From the NCBI GenBank assembly GCA_903833215.1, contig CAILEM010000057.1, positions 1 to 32,352 on the forward strand: a DNA stretch of 32,352 bases, read 5' to 3'. The notes under the pieces were generated by a model. That model saw only the letters and a program-made list of their open reading frames with translations, did not search any database and was not told the DNA's origin. Origin of the DNA: an uncultured Armatimonadota bacterium (GTDB taxonomy: Bacteria > Armatimonadota > Fimbriimonadia > Fimbriimonadales > Fimbriimonadaceae). Shown piece after piece: positions 3,096-26,051 of the stretch. Position numbers and translations under genes: made by a program. The stretch's first letter is position 1; every line of letters begins with the position of its first letter.

Positions 3096-5110
3096 CACTG
3101 AAGTCTTTTCCCATGTTTAAGAATCAATTGACGATCCGGCTTCTTGGGCAAACCTCTTTTGACGTTAATGGGGAAGTCGTGACGCAATTTCGATGGAACC
3201 GGATTCCCGCCCTATTCGGTTACCTGCTGGTCCATCCTGGGCCAAATTCTCGTGAGTCCATTTCTGAAGCCCTTTGGCCAGATCGTCCACCTGACAGTGC
3301 GCGCCATAACCTTAGGCAAACTCTGGTTTATTGCGCGGAGATTCTTGATGGCAAGCTCATGGGGGCATTGTCAGTTGGGCGAAATTCAATTGCGATCAAT
3401 AGAGATCTCGTCGACTCCGATATCGATGTTTTTTTGACATCCGGTCCAAAAAGTGAGGAAGCGTCAAAGGCGAGAACACGCCACGAAAAACGAATTAAGC
3501 ACTATGCAGGACCCTTCCTCGCTGGCTTAGGCGATGATTGGATACATGATACGAGGGCTCAAATTGCACGCGCCTATTTCGAATCACTTCTCTACGTCTC
3601 CCAATATTCTCTTCAGTCGGAACCTGCCAGGGCATTGGAACTTGCCGAATTGGCAGTGCGCCAGGAAATCTACGAAGATGCACCGCGTGCAGCCAAGATC
3701 CGAGCGCTCATCGCACTTGGACGTGAGGCGGCAGCCCAAACGGAGTATGTGAGTTTTGCTGCCCTGCTGAATGAACAACTTCTGCTGAAGCCTGGCAAAA
3801 CAGTTCTCGAGGCCCTGAAAGACTCTCGACCGTCCGATCCTGTCGTTGCATTACGCCCAGACCTATCCGATGCAGCAGCACCAACCATCGCCGATACCCT
3901 TGCCTTTTTGAAAGAGCAGGGCATGATGCGTGAAGCGTCCGAGCTGGTCTTGGCGCTCGTGCCCTTCTGGATTCGCAAAGGAAACCCGTCTCAGGGGCAG
4001 GAACTGCTGCTATCGACCTATGAAGCTGCAGAGCGAAAACCCGGAAATACAGAAAACTTGTCGCTCGCAAGGCTGGCCTATGCCCAAGGGGATAACGCGA
4101 GGGCCCGAAAAGTTGTCCAAGCAGTCCTCGCCTCATCACCAGGCGAGGAAATCCAATCGGAATGTGAACTTATTCATGCGAGAATCGACCTAACTGAGGT
4201 CAAGCCTGAGGCGGCGAAGCGCCGCGTCATTCTCGCGCTACGTTCGATTCGCAAGAGGAAAGATCGGACTCTCGAACTTGAAGGCTGGGTAGTTCTTGCG
4301 ATGGCACTTTTCGCCAACGACGAGTTTTTGAAAGTCGACAAAAGGGCCCACCATGCCATTGCGTTGGCCGAAGAACTTGGGGACGTCCTTTCTCGAAACC
4401 ATGTGGGAATTTATCAGGCTTTCGCCTGGCATCGTCTTGGCTTCAGTGACCGAGCATTTGCGATTGCCGATGAAATCAGCCGACAGCTTTCTCCGGCGTC
4501 TACTCCCGTTGCGAGCCAAATTCTGTGTTCGGCCAGCCGACTTATGGAGGACCTTGGCCAGGTTGACTCTGCCCGTCAAGGATACGTTAGCTGTATTGCC
4601 GATTGCCGAAGGCTGTCCAATATCTACACGCTTGGCATGGTTCTAACCTATCTTGGCGACCTAGAGTGCGAATCAAGGCGCTTCAGTGAGGCACTTAAGC
4701 TGCATCTCGAAGGGCTCAAGGTGCGTCGTGATACGGACAATAACCTCGGTATCGCCACTTCACTTCGCGGAGTTGGGAAAGCCCTTCTTGGTAAGGGGCA
4801 ACCCGCTGAAGCAAAAGTCGTTTTGCAGGAGAGTGCCCAGCGATACCGTGATGATAGCGCCGTTTCGGGGCATGCCAGTGCCCAGCTGTTATTATCTGAG
4901 GCCGAAGCACAAGCTGGTGACCTCCACTTAGCGATGCGTTTGGCAGAGAACTCTCTGGATATCCTTCGCCGGTTGGGTCCGACTGGGCGACTAACCATTG
5001 GCCCGTCCGGACACCACATCCTTGAATCCGGCGAAAATCTCCTCCGGTCAATGCACGAAAAGCTGGAGTCTGGGGACCCAAATTACCCGCTGAAATCGAC
5101 TGTCCTTTAA
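3092..5110 (+). CDS. SARP-family (winged-helix plus BTAD plus TPR) transcriptional activator
   Basis: The 672-residue protein has an N-terminal OmpR-like winged helix at about 9-100 (LTIRLLG...W.R..ALFGYLLVHPG..SRESISEALWPD, then LRQTL). The bacterial transcriptional activation domain follows at about 107-245 (YAGPFLAGL..DWI), then a long helical TPR-type region to about 650. There is no NB-ARC domain, so it is a medium-sized SARP. Such proteins bind direct heptamer repeats spaced 11 bp apart and recruit RNA polymerase. Exactly such repeats occur in the promoter of the next gene (5155-5176), which is probably its target. The start is GTG at 3092, overlapping the stop of a short upstream frame; ATG at 3113 is an alternative. 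A symmetric element at 5119-5145 follows the stop. Confidence 0.85.
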   Translation: MTLKSFPMFKNQLTIRLLGQTSFDVNGEVVTQFRWNRIPALFGYLLVHPGPNSRESISEALWPDRPPDSARHNLRQTLVYCAEILDGKLMGALSVGRNSIAINRDLVDSDIDVFLTSGPKSEEASKARTRHEKRIKHYAGPFLAGLGDDWIHDTRAQIARAYFESLLYVSQYSLQSEPARALELAELAVRQEIYEDAPRAAKIRALIALGREAAAQTEYVSFAALLNEQLLLKPGKTVLEALKDSRPSDPVVALRPDLSDAAAPTIADTLAFLKEQGMMREASELVLALVPFWIRKGNPSQGQELLLSTYEAAERKPGNTENLSLARLAYAQGDNARARKVVQAVLASSPGEEIQSECELIHARIDLTEVKPEAAKRRVILALRSIRKRKDRTLELEGWVVLAMALFANDEFLKVDKRAHHAIALAEELGDVLSRNHVGIYQAFAWHRLGFSDRAFAIADEISRQLSPASTPVASQILCSASRLMEDLGQVDSARQGYVSCIADCRRLSNIYTLGMVLTYLGDLECESRRFSEALKLHLEGLKVRRDTDNNLGIATSLRGVGKALLGKGQPAEAKVVLQESAQRYRDDSAVSGHASAQLLLSEAEAQAGDLHLAMRLAENSLDILRRLGPTGRLTIGPSGHHILESGENLLRSMHEKLESGDPNYPLKSTVL

Positions 5111-5118
5111 GCGTGAGA

Positions 5119-5145
5119 ATAGGGAATTTGGCAAATATTCCCTAT
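5119..5145 (+). terminator. Hairpin after the SARP gene
   Basis: ATAGGGAAT (5119-5127) and ATTCCCTAT (5137-5145) form a perfect 9-bp stem with a 9-nt loop, 8 nt after the SARP stop codon. There is no T-run, so it could be a weak terminator or an operator belonging to the adjacent promoter. Confidence 0.45.
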
Positions 5146-5154
5146 CGTCAGAGT

Positions 5155-5188
5155 TGCTGACGATCTGCTGACGATTGATCTTGATAAT
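5155..5188 (+). promoter_or_regulatory. Predicted SARP-type promoter: tandem 11-mers plus -10 box
   Basis: Two back-to-back 11-mers, TGCTGACGATC (5155-5165) and TGCTGACGATT (5166-5176), carry the heptamer CTGACGA at 5157-5163 and 5168-5174, 4 bp apart. Eight bp after the second heptamer is the -10-like GATAAT (5183-5188). An inverted partial copy, TCGTCAG, lies at 5145-5151. Characterised SARP targets have heptamer direct repeats with an 11-bp period, the last one 8 bp upstream of the -10 box. No good -35 box is present, as expected for an activator that replaces it. The geometry is read from sequence; binding by the neighbouring SARP is inferred. Confidence 0.6.
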
Positions 5189-5242
5189 GGCTATCCATCG
5201 GGTGAGCAACACGTCTCGTGATTCACTTCGAAGGAGAAATGG

Positions 5243-7243
5243 ATGAGATTAGACATAAATTTGCCTGGCCGAATGCGACTTTCGCTTGCTGGGTTGGCAT
5301 TGGTTGCGGTTCTTGCGGGCTGCGGTGGTGGCGGTGGAGGTGGATCCACAGGTGGTGGTGGCGGCGGCGGTGGAGGCGGTGGTCTAGCGTTAACCGGGAA
5401 CAACGCGGAGTTTGCCGTTGGGATTTCTGACTCCAAAGCGACTCTGGCTGGCTCTAGTGTTGCCTTCGCGGTTCTGCAAAAACTGGTTCCACTTCCAGCC
5501 TTCGGCGGAAGATCCTCGATCCATTCATTTGGGTCAAGCACACCAACTCTGGTGGCTTCGCTGAATCTTTACCAGACGTCCGTAGTCTCCGGGAAGACGC
5601 TCACTTTGAACTACACGACCGACCAAGCCGGCAAGAAATCAGCTGGAAAAGTGGTCGCAACCGCGACTCAGAACATCGGTAGCACTTACACGTATCCTGT
5701 GACCTTTACGGTTGCAGGCGACATCACGGCTGGCTCCATTCCGATGCATGTTGCCTTGACCATCACCCTGCTGGATAGCGTTGGGGCAAACACCATGAAG
5801 GGTGTGCTCAACATGACCAAGGATAACATTGACCTCAACCTCGACCTGAGCCTTTTGGATAACGGCCAAGTTGGGAACAAGGGATCCATGGTTGTCAAAT
5901 ACAACTACGCCTTTGGTGGAACTCAGGTCCCGACGACGACGACGTTGACGAACCTGAAGGGAAGTCCTCTGACGACGATCACTGGAGATGCTTCCATAAG
6001 CGCAACCGTGTTCGATCCATCTGTTCCTAGTACTGGGACTGGCACTGGATCAATCGATTTGGTTCATGGAAACATGACATTGAAGATTACGGATGGCCCT
6101 TTGGCAGGATTACTCCAGACCTTCAATGGTGGCAACAACACGTTGACTCTCACCACTTCGACAGGTCTCCAAAAGGTGATCAGCGAAGTCAATACATTCT
6201 TGATGGGTTCGTTGAAGGGGGATACTGGTCCAAAGTCTCCTTACCATAACCCCATCCCGCTCTCAGGCGGTAGCAATATTGTCATTGGACAAGCGCTTGG
6301 AAACGGTGAAATGGTTGGATACTCCACTGACGCAAGCAACAAGACGACGCCGCTCTACTGGACATCGCCAGCCGCCCAACCGATCACACTTGACCTTCCA
6401 TCCAACGCAATTCAAGGAACGGCACGGGGCATTGCTCAATACGCTGGCCAAAGGGTCGTCGTTGGCAGCTCTACCGATGCGGATAGCGTCATGCAGCCGT
6501 GCTTCTGGATCCAGGCGGCGGGCCAACTTGCCTTCAAGCCACTCCGAGCAACAAGTTTGCCACATGGCGGATCTTTCTTAGCAATCAGCGCGAACGGCAA
6601 CACATCGGTAGGGTTCATGTACGATTCGAACTTCAAAGAGCAGCCGATGGCCTACATAAGCGGCACTCCGTACCCATTGTTGACGGATGATCGGCAAACG
6701 AGCCTTCGCGCGATTGGGGTCGATAACTTCAATGACATCCTCGGGGATGGCAGCCTTGGGCAGCTCACGCCTGGCGTTTGGCAAAACGTGTCGGTGGACG
6801 TGGCATCGAATACGATCAAGACGAAGTTCAAACCTCTGGACAACCAAGGGATCTCTGATCCAAACCTGAACGCCCAGCACATCAGCCCTTCCGGCGCGAT
6901 TGTTGGTGGAACAGGTTCGGAGATCATCGTCTGGCTCCGAGAAAACCAATTCGGTCCGATGGATCTTGCGAAGGGAACCAGTTCTGGTGGAGAAGCCTAT
7001 GGCGTTTCCGCAGACGGAACGAAGTTCGCAGGAATGATCTACCCACAAGGTTCGACCACCGGCGACCTAGCCTACTGGAGCTACATCGGCAACCCACCCG
7101 TTGACGTTAGCAAGCAGATCGCGAACCTAGGCAACTACGTAAGCATCGCAGGAGACTTCCTCCTGAACGACGGATCATTCATCTGTCTCGCCAAAAACAA
7201 GTCAACCAACAAGGTGGACTTCATCTACATCAAGAAGTCGTAA
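5243..7243 (+). CDS. Exported lipoprotein with glycine-run linker and HAF-type repeats
   Basis: The ATG at 5243 has AAGGAG (5231-5236) 6 nt upstream; an out-of-frame ATG overlaps at 5239. The signal ends in the lipobox LAGC (C27). The mature N-terminus is almost pure glycine (about 28-48), encoded by an imperfect GGT/GGC triplet run. A region rich in Thr, Ser, Asn and Gly at about 60-330 follows. The C-terminal half (about 345-666) contains repeats of the type G.G.MVGYSTDASN..TPLYW, AISANGNTSVGF and GVSADGTKFAGM, resembling the HAF repeat of extracellular beta-propeller-like proteins. The role is unknown, probably at the cell surface. Its promoter carries the SARP-type repeats described at 5155, so it is the likely regulated target of the upstream gene. 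Confidence 0.75.
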   Translation: MRLDINLPGRMRLSLAGLALVAVLAGCGGGGGGGSTGGGGGGGGGGGLALTGNNAEFAVGISDSKATLAGSSVAFAVLQKLVPLPAFGGRSSIHSFGSSTPTLVASLNLYQTSVVSGKTLTLNYTTDQAGKKSAGKVVATATQNIGSTYTYPVTFTVAGDITAGSIPMHVALTITLLDSVGANTMKGVLNMTKDNIDLNLDLSLLDNGQVGNKGSMVVKYNYAFGGTQVPTTTTLTNLKGSPLTTITGDASISATVFDPSVPSTGTGTGSIDLVHGNMTLKITDGPLAGLLQTFNGGNNTLTLTTSTGLQKVISEVNTFLMGSLKGDTGPKSPYHNPIPLSGGSNIVIGQALGNGEMVGYSTDASNKTTPLYWTSPAAQPITLDLPSNAIQGTARGIAQYAGQRVVVGSSTDADSVMQPCFWIQAAGQLAFKPLRATSLPHGGSFLAISANGNTSVGFMYDSNFKEQPMAYISGTPYPLLTDDRQTSLRAIGVDNFNDILGDGSLGQLTPGVWQNVSVDVASNTIKTKFKPLDNQGISDPNLNAQHISPSGAIVGGTGSEIIVWLRENQFGPMDLAKGTSSGGEAYGVSADGTKFAGMIYPQGSTTGDLAYWSYIGNPPVDVSKQIANLGNYVSIAGDFLLNDGSFICLAKNKSTNKVDFIYIKKS

Positions 7244-20010: not shown

Positions 20011-20715
20011 ATGAAAATCAAACTTCGCGGAGTGCTGTTGTTGGGCCTACTGGCCATTGGCGCGCCCGCATTGCTTATTCGACGGGGGCACGCCTCCGAC
20101 CACGCCGACACACCCAATATCGCAGCGAACCCGGGAGAGGACATCAGCGATGTGTTCATTTTCCCCAGTCCAAGCAATCCAGACAACGTCGTGCTGGTCA
20201 TGAATGTCCATCCATTGATCGGCGCCGGCATGGGCGCAAGCACTTATTTCGACCCCAATATTCTGTATCAGTTCAAGATCGACAACACCGGTGACGGCGT
20301 TGAGGATGTCGTCATCCAAGCACGATTCGGTCCGGCTGGACCAACTCAATCTGTCGCAATTACAGGACCCATCAAGCCATCAACCACAGGCTCAAACAAC
20401 GTCCAGGAGCGACAAGCTACCAAGCGCGGCACGTTCAATACAACGTTCAGCCCAACTCCAGGAATGCAGGTGTTCTGCGGACCTCGTGAAGACCCGTTCT
20501 TCTTTGACCTCGAGCAATTCTTTACGATTCTTCCAGATCGAGCCACCCCGATCAACGGCACACCGGTGAGCAATCCAAACACGCCACAGGCGGGGTCTTG
20601 GCGACCCTCCCCTGGTGCTGGTGTTTCCAATCCAGCTCAGGATTTCTTGTCGGTTCACCAGTTCAACGTCTTGTCGATCGTGGTTGAGCTTCCCAAGAAG
20701 ATGCTTCTGAAATAA
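20011..20715 (+). CDS. Exported protein, N-terminal half of a DUF4331 domain
   Basis: The start is ATG 20011, with AAGGAG (19998-20003) 7 nt upstream; the longer frame from 19936 has no such site. A signal peptide (about 1-30) ends near RRGHA. The 234-residue product then shows the DUF4331 opening: SDHADTPNIAANPGEDISDVFIFPSPSNPDNVVLVMNVHP, followed by YQFKIDNTGDGVEDVV. It ends shortly after VLSIVVELPKKML, a point that falls mid-domain in usual family members. The remaining half is encoded by the next gene, 13 nt downstream, with its own export signal. DUF4331 has no established function. Here it heads an operon with a TPR protein and a Co/Ni-type ECF transporter, suggesting an extracytoplasmic accessory role. 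Confidence 0.8.
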   Translation: MKIKLRGVLLLGLLAIGAPALLIRRGHASDHADTPNIAANPGEDISDVFIFPSPSNPDNVVLVMNVHPLIGAGMGASTYFDPNILYQFKIDNTGDGVEDVVIQARFGPAGPTQSVAITGPIKPSTTGSNNVQERQATKRGTFNTTFSPTPGMQVFCGPREDPFFFDLEQFFTILPDRATPINGTPVSNPNTPQAGSWRPSPGAGVSNPAQDFLSVHQFNVLSIVVELPKKMLLK

Positions 20716-20728
20716 ACGGAGAATTTTG

Positions 20729-21352
20729 ATGAAAAACGCGTACATAGCAATCTTAGCCACGTTATCCGTGGGAGCTGTCGTTGGGTGTGGTGGGTCAAGC
20801 CATGCATCGGGCACAGCAACTCCAAAGTCTGGTGTGATCTCACTTTGGACGACCACGAGCACCCCGTCAGGTGGATCGATGTTCAAGCAAGTGGATCGCC
20901 TGGCTCGCCCAGCAATCAACGAAGTCTTCGCCACAGTTGCGAACAACCGTCACAAGGTGAATGATGAGACTTCGCCACCTCAGGATCAGTTCGAACTCAA
21001 GAATGACATCGAGTCGTTCTTGGTCTCACCCTGCAACCGTTCCCCAGCGATTCGAAACGTGATTGAGTCTGTTCTGATTCCCGACGTGATCAAAGCCGAT
21101 CTGAATCAAACCGATAGCGCAGCCTATCTCGGTGTTGAAACGGGCGGTGCAACCGGAGGCAAGTTCGGCGGACGAAAGCTCTCAGATGACGTCGTTGACA
21201 TTTCACTAGGAATCATCTTCGGCAATACGGTGCCTGCTTTGGGCCTGGCTCCAGATGATGGCCATGAAATCCCAACGCTGACGAGTGACCATGTAGGCCC
21301 GGAAGGAAAGCATTTCTTGCCGACTTTCCCCTACCTTGGCAACCCGCTGTAG
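20729..21352 (+). CDS. Lipoprotein, C-terminal half of a DUF4331 domain
   Basis: ATG 20729 has CGGAGA about 7 nt upstream; a TTG codon just before it (20726) would be too close. The signal ends at the lipobox VVGC (C20). The 207-residue protein then begins WTTTSTPSGG..MFKQVDRLARPAINEVFATV, the sequence expected directly after the VELPK segment in an intact DUF4331 protein. It continues with FLVSP...IRNVIESVLIPDVIKADL, then FGGRKLSDDVVDISLGIIFG and ends TFPYLGNPL, the normal domain end. So this gene completes the domain begun by its upstream neighbour, but as a lipid-anchored polypeptide. The two halves probably assemble outside the membrane. A strong hairpin (21375-21398) follows the stop codon. 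Confidence 0.75.
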   Translation: MKNAYIAILATLSVGAVVGCGGSSHASGTATPKSGVISLWTTTSTPSGGSMFKQVDRLARPAINEVFATVANNRHKVNDETSPPQDQFELKNDIESFLVSPCNRSPAIRNVIESVLIPDVIKADLNQTDSAAYLGVETGGATGGKFGGRKLSDDVVDISLGIIFGNTVPALGLAPDDGHEIPTLTSDHVGPEGKHFLPTFPYLGNPL

Positions 21353-21374
21353 TCACCTGTTTCGCTAATGATAA

Positions 21375-21398
21375 GGCCCCAAAGCCGACTTTGGGGCC
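21375..21398 (+). terminator. Intercistronic GC-rich hairpin (attenuator-like)
   Basis: GGCCCCAAAG (21375-21384) and CTTTGGGGCC (21389-21398) form a perfect 10-bp stem with a CCGA loop. No T-run follows, only AAAGAAATCCC and then the ATG of the TPR gene 11 nt later. It may partly stop transcription or protect the upstream mRNA, lowering expression of the transporter genes relative to the DUF4331 pair. Confidence 0.6.
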
Positions 21399-21409
21399 AA
21401 AGAAATCCC

Positions 21410-22786
21410 ATGAAGAAGCTTCCCATTGCACTGTTCTCAGTTGCCACCATCGTGACGGGCTGGATTGCATTTGCCGGTTGGTACGGTTCGAAAGCCTACG
21501 CAGTAGGACGAGTACCTGTCGTTCATCTGCCTTTCGATTCAAGTTCGATCGACCTTCAAATTCGGAACAACGAACGAGCGGTGAAGCAAGATCCAAAGAG
21601 TGCGCTCGGGCTTTCGCTCTTGTCCTCGGCCTACCTTGATCGTAGTCGGGAATCGGATGACACAGTGACTGCTGTCAATGCTGAAATCGCGGCTCGAAGG
21701 AGCCTAGAGATCCGAAAGCTAGGAAACATCGGAGCGAGAAACAAGCTCGTCCAATCTCTACTCCAGCAGCACCGCTTCAAAGATGCTTTGAAAGAGTGCC
21801 AGATCGCTGAGAATATTGGCGTTTTTAGTGATGACACCACAGTCCTGAAGGCAGAGTGCCTGATTGAACTGGGCCAGTACGACGATGCGAAGAAACTCTT
21901 CGCTCGGACTCCACGCGCCTTTAAGGATGGGTCTGCAAAATCCGTTGTCGCCCGGTTGCTCGATATTGAGGGTAAACCTCTTGAAGCGCTTGCCATCTTG
22001 CGATCTATCACCGCCGAAGTCGAGATGAATGGAGGAATGCCAAGCAATGCCGTAGCTTGGTTTCACACACGCCTCGCCATGCAACTAGCGAAGCTCGGCC
22101 ACCACCCCGAGAGCAAAGCTGAATATCTGAGGGCGTTAAAGCTGTATCCACGGGATTACAAAGCAATGGCTGGCCTCGCAAAAATCGCATCGCAAGATGG
22201 CCATTGGCGTGAAGTGATCGAGTGGGGAATTCAATCTGACAAAATTGCGCAGATGGCCGACGTGCGCGCTCTCGTGGGAGACGCGTATGCCATGTTGGGT
22301 GATCCAACCAATGCCGAAGCTCAATACGCTGGCGTGGCGTCATTAGTTGGACGTCCATCGGGGATGAATGATGGATTGCACGAAGTGACGACAGGGGCTG
22401 GTCTGCATGGCCATCGACTTGATCGTCAGTACGCTATTTTCTGCGCTGACCACGATCGAGACCTTGCCGGCGCCTACGCTGCAGCGATTCGAGATTTTGA
22501 GGCACGGAAAGATATCTATGCGTATGACACGTTGGCATGGGTTTGCTATAAAAAAGGAGACCGCGATGAAGCGATCAAAGCCATAAGGATCGCTCTCGGA
22601 CGAGGAACTCGTGATCCGATGCTCTGGTTTCACGCAGGTGAGATCTTCCTGAATTCTGGGGATCGGAAGCACGGTATCAATTGCCTGCGGAAGTCTCTTG
22701 AAATCGACCCGCATTTCGATGGCGTTGCTGCGGGAATGGCGATCCGCGAACTAAACGAACGCAAACCAGCTGGAACTCAGTCATGA
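21410..22786 (+). CDS. Membrane-anchored extracytoplasmic TPR protein
   Basis: ATG 21410 is chosen over 21368 because the longer frame would translate through a perfect hairpin and shift the membrane signal away from the N-terminus. The 458-residue product starts MKKLPIALFSVATIVTGWIAFAG, a signal anchor. It then runs through helical TPR units to the end, for example NNERAVKQDPKSALGLSLLSSAYLD, FKDALKECQIAENI and SGDRKHGINCLRKSLEIDPHF. A segment at about 325-355 is unusually rich in His and Gly (GLHEVTTGAGLHGHRLD, then CADHDRD) and could bind a metal ion. It lies between the DUF4331 pair and the ECF transporter, so a scaffold or metal hand-over role outside the membrane is a reasonable inference. 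It is not proven. Confidence 0.75.
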   Translation: MKKLPIALFSVATIVTGWIAFAGWYGSKAYAVGRVPVVHLPFDSSSIDLQIRNNERAVKQDPKSALGLSLLSSAYLDRSRESDDTVTAVNAEIAARRSLEIRKLGNIGARNKLVQSLLQQHRFKDALKECQIAENIGVFSDDTTVLKAECLIELGQYDDAKKLFARTPRAFKDGSAKSVVARLLDIEGKPLEALAILRSITAEVEMNGGMPSNAVAWFHTRLAMQLAKLGHHPESKAEYLRALKLYPRDYKAMAGLAKIASQDGHWREVIEWGIQSDKIAQMADVRALVGDAYAMLGDPTNAEAQYAGVASLVGRPSGMNDGLHEVTTGAGLHGHRLDRQYAIFCADHDRDLAGAYAAAIRDFEARKDIYAYDTLAWVCYKKGDRDEAIKAIRIALGRGTRDPMLWFHAGEIFLNSGDRKHGINCLRKSLEIDPHFDGVAAGMAIRELNERKPAGTQS

Positions 22787-22894
22787 AATCGAGAACCTTT
22801 AAGATGGGGGAGTTCCGTGTCGGAACCGGCATCCATTCAGTCTCTCCCCCGGACCATGTCGTCCGCCTACCATTTTCGGAACGAACGAAGTAAC

Positions 22895-24802
22895 GTGCAT
22901 ATTCCAGACGCCTACCTCAGCCCTGCGACCGAAGCCGTCGCGACGCTCGTGATGGTGCCAATGTGGGTCGTTGCATCTCGAAAGACGGCATGTGAGCTTA
23001 CGTCCAAACAAGCTCCGCTCCTCTCGATTGGTGCCGCTTTCTGCTTCGCGATTCAGATGTTCAACATCCCCGCAATCGGAGGCACTACCGCACATGCCCT
23101 TGGCGCCGTCTTGCTGGCGATCTTGGTAGGGCCTTGGGCCGCGATGCTAGGAATGACCCTAACCCTTGCCATTCAGGCACTTTTGTTCGGTGATGGTGGG
23201 ATTCTATCCCTCGGAGCAAACTGCTTTGATATGGCCCTGGTTGCTCCATTTGCTGGCTATGCCGTTTATTCACTCATTGCTGGCAAAAGCTCGAACCTCA
23301 CGCCGCGCAGGCTGTTCGCCGCCGGGCTTGGCGCGTACGCTGGCGCCGTTTGTGCGTCTCTAAGTGCTGGAGTACTTCTTGGAGTTCAGCCTAGCATTGC
23401 TCACGACGCAATTGGGCATGCCCTTTACTGTCCCTTTGGTTTGCATGTCACCGTGCCTGCGATGGTCCTGAGCCATCTGCTTGTAGCTGGGCCGGCTGAG
23501 GCGATCATTACCGTTGCGACCCTTGGATATTTGTGGAAGACCTTTCCCGAATTCTCACGGGAATCTGCCACGGTGCGAGTCGGCACCAAGATGCGGCTCG
23601 CTGGGAAACTCGCCTGGGTTCTTGCGTTAACTCCCATTGGGCTTTGGGCGACCGGAACTGCTTTTGGAGAATGGGAGCTTTCAGAACTGAAACAAATGGT
23701 TGGCTATGAACCAGCCGGTATCGCAAATGCTCATTCGGTTATTCTTCCATTGCTTCCCGATTACTCATTCGCTGGGCTGAGCGGCAAACCCTGGGAGATT
23801 CTTGGATACCTTGTGAGCGCACTGATCGGATGTTGCGTGATAGCGCTGTTTACTCGTCGGATTCTCGGGAGGGGTACTTCCTCTTCCTTCGACTTGCTGA
23901 AGCCGGGTATCCCTTCATCTGCTGTTCCCAACTGGATGACCTTGCCCAATCCGCCCGTTGCGACTTCCGCATTGCAGCGCACTCGATGGTTTGAGTCAAC
24001 ACTACTGAAGATGCGGACTGCAATCGAAAAGACGTTCGCGGCAGAGGAAGTCGCCCGCAAGCCGGGCTTCTTACAATCGATCCACCCGATGGCCAAGTCA
24101 GTTGGCTTTGCTAGTGCGATTGTAGCAACGGGTCTTGCCCAATCCGAGCAGTTCCTCGCGTTCCTAATCGCCTCAGTTCTCGTAGCGGCGGCAGGCTCTC
24201 AAGTTCCGCTTCGTAGTTTCATCGAGCGCGTTGTCGGATCCGTTTTGTTCTTTGGCTTGATTGTCGCTGCCCCGATCTCAATGAAGTCCGTGACAAGTGG
24301 ACCGGTCGCATTCAGCATCCTTGGGTTGGACATCTCAACAAGCGGGCTGCATTGTGCATCCATGATTTTGCTTCGACTCGCGGCCGGAATCAGTTTGGCG
24401 ATGCTCTGGAATTTGACGACGCGCTGGCATGAGATGCTGCGCTCACTAAAGACCTTGGGCGTTCCGCAGTTCTTCTTGGCCACAGCCGCCCTCACGTACC
24501 GCTACCTCTTTGTGTTCATCGAGACCCTTGCCGAAATGGTGGAAGCGCGGACCTCTCGTCAGGTTGGGGCCTGCAGCAAAGTCCAGGCAAGGCAGTTTGC
24601 AGGGAACGGCGGGGCGATTCTTTTTGCCAAAAGCCTTGCATTCACCGACGAAATGCACCTCGCGATGCAATCGCGGAGTGTTGACGTCAGTTCAAAAAAA
24701 CCAAAGTTCACTGCTTGGAAGCCGAGAGACTTCGGCGCCGCGCTAACTGGAATTCTGTGTTTGGTCGTCATCGCGTTGTTAGGACATATCCATGCTTTTT
24801 GA
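22895..24802 (+). CDS. cbiMQ: CbiM-(PDGLE/CbiN-like)-CbiQ fusion, ECF Co/Ni transporter membrane protein
   Basis: GTG 22895 is chosen because it gives an N-terminal Met-His (VHIPDAYLSP, V read as Met). In CbiM/NikM the free N-terminus and His2 bind the metal. The frame stays open back to 22817, but that extension has no signal peptide to be cleaved. From the GTG the protein has about 635 residues. The CbiM domain (1-220) has GGTTAHALGAVLLAILVGPWAAML, QALLFGDGGILSLGAN and a FGLHVTVPAM-type ending. A PDGLE/CbiN-like part (about 230-330) has TPIGLWATGTAFGEW and LLPDYSF. CbiQ (about 375-635) has LRLAAGISLAMLW, the TALTYRYLFVF region and MHLAMQSR, the usual ATPase-coupling area. The metal may be Co or Ni; sequence does not decide. 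It overlaps the ATPase gene by 11 nt. Confidence 0.85.
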   Translation: MHIPDAYLSPATEAVATLVMVPMWVVASRKTACELTSKQAPLLSIGAAFCFAIQMFNIPAIGGTTAHALGAVLLAILVGPWAAMLGMTLTLAIQALLFGDGGILSLGANCFDMALVAPFAGYAVYSLIAGKSSNLTPRRLFAAGLGAYAGAVCASLSAGVLLGVQPSIAHDAIGHALYCPFGLHVTVPAMVLSHLLVAGPAEAIITVATLGYLWKTFPEFSRESATVRVGTKMRLAGKLAWVLALTPIGLWATGTAFGEWELSELKQMVGYEPAGIANAHSVILPLLPDYSFAGLSGKPWEILGYLVSALIGCCVIALFTRRILGRGTSSSFDLLKPGIPSSAVPNWMTLPNPPVATSALQRTRWFESTLLKMRTAIEKTFAAEEVARKPGFLQSIHPMAKSVGFASAIVATGLAQSEQFLAFLIASVLVAAAGSQVPLRSFIERVVGSVLFFGLIVAAPISMKSVTSGPVAFSILGLDISTSGLHCASMILLRLAAGISLAMLWNLTTRWHEMLRSLKTLGVPQFFLATAALTYRYLFVFIETLAEMVEARTSRQVGACSKVQARQFAGNGGAILFAKSLAFTDEMHLAMQSRSVDVSSKKPKFTAWKPRDFGAALTGILCLVVIALLGHIHAF

Positions 24803-25550
24803 AGCCACAAATCTTGAATACCGATACACGGACGGAACTCCGGGCCTCCAGGGAATGTCGTTTGCCATCCAAGCCGGCGACAGAGTCGCGATTTTAGGCG
24901 CAAACGGAAGCGGGAAGTCGACTTTGCTTCGTGTGCTTGATGGGCTTATCTTTCCATCATCTGGATTGTTGACCTTTCGAGACAAGCCGGTCACTGAGCT
25001 TTCGCTAAAGGCGTCGGCGTTCAATCAGGAATTTCGACAAAGCGTGGGGTTCGTCTTCCAGAACGCGGATGCCCAACTGTTCAACGCGACGGTCCAAGAG
25101 GAAGTCGGCTTTGGTCCAAGGCAGTTGGGGCTGTCCGAGGCTGAGGTACATGGCAGAGTATCCGATGTTCTTGGATTCCTCGGTATTCAGCATCTGGCTG
25201 AACGCCCCCCATTTCGATTGAGCGGAGGTGAAAAGCGCAAAGTCGCTATCGCCTCGGTGCTCAGCATGAATCCCGAAGTTCTAATCTTCGATGAGCCGTT
25301 TTTAGGCCTCGATCCGAGATCGCAAAGCTGGTTGGTTCGAACCCTTGAGCAGTTGCAGGCGGCAGGGAAGACCACCATCGTTGCCACGCACACGTTGGAT
25401 ACAGTGCCAAAGATCGCCGACAAAGCCTTTGTGCTTTCAGAGTCTCACGAACTGGTCTGTGTGGACGCAGTTTCGGCAGTCTTGGCAGATAAACAGTTGC
25501 TAATGGCCGCCAACCTAATTGAGGCCCCAACTATGGCGGTGGTCCATTGA
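24792..25550 (+). CDS. cbiO: ECF transporter ATPase, CbiO type
   Basis: The 252-residue ABC ATPase powers the fused CbiM/CbiQ protein just upstream, whose 3' end it overlaps by 11 nt. All core motifs are present: Walker A GANGSGKST (36-44), Q-loop Q90 in VGFVFQNADAQLF, signature LSGGEKRK (143-150), Walker B VLIFDEP (163-169) and H-loop H200. NADAQLF and the following FGP are typical of the ECF/CbiO group rather than of general importers. Only one ATPase gene is present, so a homodimer is expected. ATG at 24792 opens with MLFEATNLEYRY, a normal N-terminus. Translation is very likely coupled to the upstream gene, and the downstream gene starts in its last codons. Confidence 0.93.
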   Translation: MLFEATNLEYRYTDGTPGLQGMSFAIQAGDRVAILGANGSGKSTLLRVLDGLIFPSSGLLTFRDKPVTELSLKASAFNQEFRQSVGFVFQNADAQLFNATVQEEVGFGPRQLGLSEAEVHGRVSDVLGFLGIQHLAERPPFRLSGGEKRKVAIASVLSMNPEVLIFDEPFLGLDPRSQSWLVRTLEQLQAAGKTTIVATHTLDTVPKIADKAFVLSESHELVCVDAVSAVLADKQLLMAANLIEAPTMAVVH

Positions 25551-26020
25551 AGTTGCCTCTCATTGCTGGACTCCTCGTCGTGACGTCCGTTTCGATGGCA
25601 TCCGATACAGATGTTCGCCGCACAATTCAGAATCAGTACAAACGCTGGAGTCGTGCCGCTCTTACGAATGACGTGGAGTCGATCCTTACGATCCTCGCCA
25701 CGAACTACACTTTGCACACCTACTCTGGAAAGGTGATTGATCACAAAACTTACGAGTCAAGTTTGCGTGAACGGAAGAAGCAGAATAAGCCAGCTTCTGT
25801 CTATGATACGCACATCGAAAGGATGTCGATTCATGGAGACAATGCGATCGTTGTTTCAAATGAAACATCCAGCAATACATCCGTGGATCCAATCACGAAC
25901 AAGAAGCTGAGGCTGATCCACATCCACAAATACTCAGACTCGTGGGTCAAGATACGCGGCGAATGGCGCCTTCAGAAGACGATCACGCAGGCGGAATCCA
26001 CAAAAGTCGTTCCACTCTAA
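25547..26020 (+). CDS. Exported NTF2-like (SnoaL/DUF4440-type) protein
   Basis: The 157-residue protein starts at TTG 25547, overlapping the ATPase stop codon (TTGA). There is no independent ribosome binding site, so translation should be coupled. A short signal peptide (KLPLIAGLLVVTSVSMA) precedes a single NTF2-like domain: an initial helix (RRTIQNQYKRWSRAALTNDVESILTILATNYTLHTYSG), then strands with GDNAIVVSNETSS and IHIHKYSDSWVKIRGEWRLQKTI. This fold binds small ligands or forms dimers; no catalytic pattern is clear. Being last in a DUF4331/TPR/ECF transporter operon and exported, it may be another accessory of that system. The stop codon lies inside the loop of a strong terminator. Confidence 0.75.
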   Translation: MKLPLIAGLLVVTSVSMASDTDVRRTIQNQYKRWSRAALTNDVESILTILATNYTLHTYSGKVIDHKTYESSLRERKKQNKPASVYDTHIERMSIHGDNAIVVSNETSSNTSVDPITNKKLRLIHIHKYSDSWVKIRGEWRLQKTITQAESTKVVPL

Positions 26021-26039
26021 GAGTCTGGAACGACTTTTT
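26002..26039. terminator. Strong intrinsic terminator overlapping the end of the operon
   Basis: AAAAGTCGTTCCA (26002-26014) pairs perfectly with TGGAACGACTTTT (26026-26038), followed by one more T. The loop (26015-26025) contains the TAA stop codon of the NTF2-like gene. The A-run on the left arm gives a T-run on the other strand, so it can also end the convergent sugar-isomerase transcript, whose stop lies at 26052. Confidence 0.9.
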
Positions 26040-26051
26040 GTGGGTAACAGC

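Follow-up and report, generated by a model that had tools for sequence, protein, structure and literature searches.

A six-gene operon joins a split DUF4331 pair and a TPR protein to a cobalt/nickel-class ECF importer, a variant of an apparently undescribed DUF4331-TPR-permease arrangement

The window, by which we mean the whole 32,352-nucleotide stretch of DNA analyzed (from genome G000), carries a tight operon in which a DUF4331 protein split over two genes and a TPR protein precede a complete ECF importer. This linkage is a minority variant, found in two phyla (3 of 21 loci of the window's order and four actinobacterial loci), of a DUF4331-TPR-permease module that is apparently undescribed. 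With somewhat more confidence than doubt, we read it as an envelope system for a divalent transition metal (Ni, Co or Cu), consisting of DUF4331 for capture, a TPR scaffold, and an importer. DUF4331 is widespread, and no mention of it was found in the literature searched. The repeated gene order ties the family to metal permeases, and together with an N-terminal chelating motif it offers a specific laboratory test of DUF4331 on a single protein.

Pfam and NCBIfam profile searches recovered six genes on the + strand, placed as in the initial annotation, in the order split DUF4331 (two genes), TPR, CbiM-PDGLE-CbiQ fusion, CbiO and NTF2-like. The features of the locus are as follows.

20011..20715, + strand: N-terminal half of DUF4331, profile positions 1-221, exported (Pfam PF14224, 6.5e-36; signal-peptidase I site GHA↓SDH)
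20729..21352, + strand: C-terminal half of DUF4331, profile positions 222-421, predicted lipoprotein (PF14224, 3.7e-17; lipobox VVGC, in VVGCGG)
21375..21398, + strand: intergenic hairpin between the DUF4331 C-half and TPR genes (dG -19.6, z -4.6; no T-run on the + strand)
21410..22786, + strand: TPR protein with an N-terminal signal or anchor (TPR Pfam models, to 4.5e-17)
22895..24802, + strand: CbiM (S)-PDGLE (N)-CbiQ (T) fusion (PF01891, 1.9e-51; PF13190, 3e-7; PF02361, 9.6e-27; NCBIfam CbiM and CbiQ)
24792..25550, + strand: CbiO, the ECF ATPase (ABC_tran, 6.4e-31; ECF_ATPase_2, 4.8e-68, below its curated cut-off)
25547..26020, + strand: secreted NTF2-like (DUF4440) protein (PF14534, 6.3e-6)
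25998..26045, + strand: terminator-like hairpin and T-run (dG -25.8 kcal/mol, z -6.7)

The two DUF4331 genes are 13 nt apart, and the last two junctions overlap by 11 and 4 nt. The distal hairpin, whose loop contains the stop codon of the NTF2-like gene, was equaled in stability by none of 200 shuffled sequences; it was not among the calls of a simple terminator scan. The tight operon that had been described from the sequence is real. The GC-rich hairpin at 21375-21398 is possibly a processing or expression-setting element. Hairpins of differing sequence were also observed near the DUF4331/TPR junction in most of the relatives folded (L047, L048, L060, L050, L051, L062, L064, L049 and L066), several of them not above shuffles. 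For the window and seven related loci, Rfam gave no regulatory RNA at gathering score and nothing credible at a relaxed threshold, and neither a riboswitch nor NikR was seen at the window locus.

Both DUF4331 halves exceeded the curated cut-off of PF14224 (124.9 and 63.1 bits against 27) and jointly cover the whole profile. The best stretch in the N-half corresponds to positions 1-109, and a further profile comparison extended its match to 221. The window form differs from the Pfam family in consisting of two chains, an exported N-half and a predicted lipoprotein C-half. DUF4331 was found in 22 of the 113 genomes of the window's order, about a fifth, and in 50 of 197 genomes of an actinobacterial sample, about a quarter. 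One-gene and two-gene forms are both present in the order, the latter in at least 11 genomes besides that of the window, and a C-half lipobox, mostly GCGG, was present in nearly all of the twelve two-gene DUF4331s examined. Since the two-gene form is kept across genomes with a lipobox on its C-half, the split is an evolved form; a frameshift, sequencing or assembly error was ruled out by the conservation of the split and of the new lipoprotein signal in many genomes. We infer that the N-half associates with the C-half, and the two chains probably rebuild the one-chain fold. A confident model of the L075 DUF4331 (pLDDT 85.6, pTM 0.91) predicts a beta-sandwich part plus helices. No solved relative of DUF4331 was found by sequence (best E 0.74), and none that was convincing by fold in the PDB (Foldseek best E 0.04; VIA-align Z up to 5.8). 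The VIA-align matches were Ig-like sandwiches only, which we took as common architecture.

We then considered the mature N-terminus. The window N-half reads GHA↓SDHADTP, so that its predicted mature N-terminus is SDHADTP, of the form X-X-His. Ninety-five distinct DUF4331 sequences were selected by a motif with an invariant His, and every cleavage offset was scanned. His was present in 95/95 by construction; the independent result is Ala at -1, in 84 of the 95, together with small residues at -3. A cut two residues before His was the sole offset that met the -3/-1 rule in 93/95 sequences (rule-predicted cleavage), and 66/95 agreed there with the strict [AV]xA pattern, which at most 24 did at other offsets. 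The next best offset, directly before His, agreed with a loose rule in 84/95 but with the strict one in 0/95. Eight more DUF4331s, in which the motif was spelled differently or the match was truncated (for example ASHRNGP, SDHADTQ and SDHADTK), showed the same pattern. The predicted mature N-terminus, S/A-S/D-H, is by definition an ATCUN motif; such motifs bind Cu(II) and Ni(II), with a preference for Cu of about six orders of magnitude (PMC7701195). Nevertheless, conservation of the N-terminus runs past the His (SHREAP), and the His may therefore be kept for structural reasons.

All components of a Cbi/NikMNQO ECF importer are present in the operon, namely S (CbiM), T (CbiQ), ATPase (CbiO) and an N-like PDGLE part, which confirms the complete CbiM/CbiQ/CbiO importer recognized in the initial annotation. 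CbiM probably starts at GTG 22895, not at GTG 22817, because the former gives MHIPDAY (MHIPD...) and relatives begin exactly at M/LHIPDAYLSP. Read from there, CbiM has Met1, His2 and His67, the last of which is a ligand in NikM. None of the six operon products matched DUF4198, to which NikK belongs, or NikL in Pfam and NCBIfam. It had been supposed that ECF metal importers are not known to need extracytoplasmic partners; this was mistaken, as NikK and NikL are known as such partners in NikKMLQO (PMC2667541), and a Kd of 18 nM for Ni is reported for DUF4198, a NikK-like family (PMC12537917). The window operon shares the M, Q and O core and an N-like PDGLE part with NikKMLQO, NikMNQO and CbiMNQO (PMC2667541), and additional partners have a precedent in NikK and NikL. 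However, its own partners are DUF4331, TPR and NTF2-like proteins, not NikK or NikL, and its M, N and Q parts are fused in one chain.

The NTF2-like gene also occurs in the G015 operon. In G042 (L044:6172-7245), a longer protein that carries DUF4440 at its C-terminus and matches the window NTF2-like protein at 8.7e-27 is encoded divergently beside CbiM without DUF4331, and the NTF2-like gene may thus belong to the ECF part. CbiMQ fusions with CbiO but without DUF4331-TPR were observed in three genomes of the window's genus (L041 of G026, L042 of G028 and L043 of G030), near glutamate synthase, a TAT-signal Ferritin_2 protein or SelR. At L045 (G112), CbiM-CbiQ-CbiO has a NikR gene ~0.7 kb upstream, which suggests nickel at that locus.

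Gene neighborhoods were compared next. A TPR gene directly followed DUF4331 on the same strand in all 21 loci read in the order, in 7 of 8 annotated plasmid loci and in 65 of 73 loci of a genome scan, which was biased towards query-like DUF4331s and rich in Streptomyces. Within the order, DUF4331-TPR was followed by CbiM in three loci (G000, G015 and G016), by HupE/UreJ-2 in one (G066) and by neither in 17, indicating that a permease is not obligatory for DUF4331-TPR. In the genome scan, a metal-transporter-family permease followed TPR in 48 of the 60 loci with TPR and enough sequence (NicO in 43, four of them continuing into CbiM-CbiQ-CbiO; HupE/UreJ-2 in five), and the same was true of 5/7 plasmid loci. 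NicO or HupE permeases upstream on the same strand were seen in only 2 of 80 genome loci (L124 and L140). The permease-bearing loci belong to at least six phyla (Armatimonadota, Chloroflexota, Nitrospirota, Pseudomonadota, Actinomycetota and one Parcubacteria genome); acidobacterial and verrucomicrobial loci have DUF4331-TPR without a permease. The permeases behind DUF4331-TPR are of at least two unrelated folds, and in some Actinomycetota NicO and then CbiM-CbiQ-CbiO stand there. The location of DUF4331 and TPR directly upstream of transition-metal permeases suggests that DUF4331 serves to capture metal. In the actinobacterial sample, CbiM was found in 139/197 genomes, and DUF4331 and CbiM were about 3.2 kb apart in three. 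A Chloroflexota locus, L128, has two DUF4331-TPR pairs in tandem.

The earlier interpretation survives in part. Its metal uptake or handling module is supported, more strongly than the sequence alone allowed, as DUF4331-TPR precedes metal-family permeases in these phyla, but the ECF transporter is not a constant part, its place being usually taken by NicO, HupE/UreJ-2 or nothing. The neighborhood comparison that had been proposed gave a divided answer: two further species of the genus have the linkage and it reappears in Actinomycetota, whereas the majority of relatives are without it. In G016, the ECF linkage occurs with an unsplit DUF4331 and with unfused CbiM and CbiQ. In the TPR tree, the ECF-linked proteins of G000, G015 and G016 form one clade (81/85), to which G044, whose genome gave no CbiM match, is sister (100/99). 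As the ECF-linked TPRs group together, the ECF linkage in the order may be a single event.

The NicO proteins of DUF4331 loci start with AxA↓HP(L/M)GNF, and Ala precedes His1 in 43/43. An AlphaFold2 model of the L085 NicO ectodomain (pLDDT 88) found its best PDB match in 9GCE, the copper-bound Ang-1 domain of a HupE/UreJ-2 protein (E 7.4e-6 in Foldseek; Z 9.2 in VIA-align, with 141 aligned, 4.0 Å and 15% identity), followed by the zinc proteins ZrgA and PA4063. The likeness is structural only, as no sequence link from NicO or HupE ectodomains to 9GCE was found. Ang-1 and Ang-2 are "anglerases" described in 2025, which bind Cu with Kd values of 74 and 62 nM; Ang-1 also binds Ni (Kd 220 nM), and the authors proposed that anglerases feed permeases inward (PMC12537917). 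The main text of that paper mentions neither DUF4331 nor TPR nor NicO. Anglerase-HupE/UreJ-2 permeases, which are of the Ni/Co class, carry their own metal-binding ectodomain with a mature N-terminal His, and the NicO ectodomains found at DUF4331 loci resemble Ang-1 in modeled fold. In contrast, the window has no anglerase-permease and an ECF importer in that place; an N-terminal-His ectodomain was absent from its CbiM-PDGLE-CbiQ by Pfam. In alignments, many NicO and HupE ectodomains have an EF-hand-like DxDxDG stretch, such as MDADRDGKIS or LDxDGDG.

In the mechanism that we favor, exported DUF4331 would capture metal at the cell surface, the signal-peptidase I cut freeing an X-X-His N-terminus (Ser-Asp-His in the window) that, as an ATCUN site, could chelate Cu(II) or Ni(II). 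In the window lineage, a soluble N-half with this site and a membrane-tethered lipoprotein C-half would together restore the fold of the one-chain form. The TPR protein of the envelope may act as a scaffold between DUF4331 and the permease, aiding metal hand-over. In most bacteria, the permease would be NicO or HupE/UreJ-2 with its own N-terminal-His "anglerase" ectodomain. The window lineage has the CbiM-N-Q-O ECF importer in place of the anglerase-permease, and its S-component would bind the metal via Met1-His2, the first two residues being those through which CbiM/NikM proteins bind their substrate metal (PMC6828968).

CbiMQO suggests Ni or Co, whereas ATCUN sites and Ang-1 bind Cu best. 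In the window genome, we found no match to urease, no [NiFe]-hydrogenase or LarA, and no Ni-SOD in a search without a positive control. CbiC, of corrin-ring synthesis, was found in none of the 113 genomes of the order, including that of the window; B12-binding proteins are present. The lack of a Ni or Co client enzyme in the window genome and the preference of ATCUN sites and Ang-1/Ang-2 ectodomains for Cu (PMC7701195, PMC12537917) would both agree with a copper module, in which DUF4331 and anglerase-like ectodomains handle envelope Cu(II) for uptake or protection, while the "nickel/cobalt" permeases linked to them, the window CbiMQO among these, are adapted to copper. We consider this unlikely, as CbiM, CbiQ and CbiO match Co/Ni models, CbiM keeps M1, H2 and H67, and no CopA, CopZ or CopC-like genes were seen in the neighborhoods read. 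The NicO family includes exporters such as RcnA. This and the same lack of a client enzyme are what speaks for metal export or envelope detoxification, with DUF4331 binding surplus metal outside the cell. Such a role is very doubtful: transporters of the ECF type work as importers, and anglerases, which the ectodomains resemble, are proposed to feed permeases inward (PMC12537917).

Chance co-transcription would instead make DUF4331-TPR an envelope pair of unrelated role, downstream of which an ordinary CbiMNQO was inserted once, in the ancestor of G000, G015 and G016. The single clade of ECF-linked TPRs allows for one event, 17 of the 21 order loci are without a permease, and G026, G028 and G030 have CbiMQ fusions without DUF4331. 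However, in other phyla this position is held by permeases that share the substrate class of CbiMNQO (NicO, HupE, and in Actinomycetota NicO with CbiMQO), and we give this explanation only a small chance. Returning to metal capture and import, a broader proposal, which we advance tentatively as plausible rather than probable, is that DUF4331 is a secreted ATCUN-type capture family that works with a dedicated TPR scaffold to load anglerase-NicO, anglerase-HupE/UreJ-2 and ECF CbiMNQO permeases across many phyla, and is often two-chain in the window's order. These results suggest that N-terminal-His metal capture, known since 2025 from permease ectodomains, may extend to separate secreted partners, and that it may couple to ECF importers, a class in which many members operate with no protein of this kind. 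At L067, a Pseudoalteromonas plasmid locus, a sigma-70-family sigma factor and an anti-sigma factor (4585-5801) directly precede DUF4331, and this pair possibly regulates the module there.
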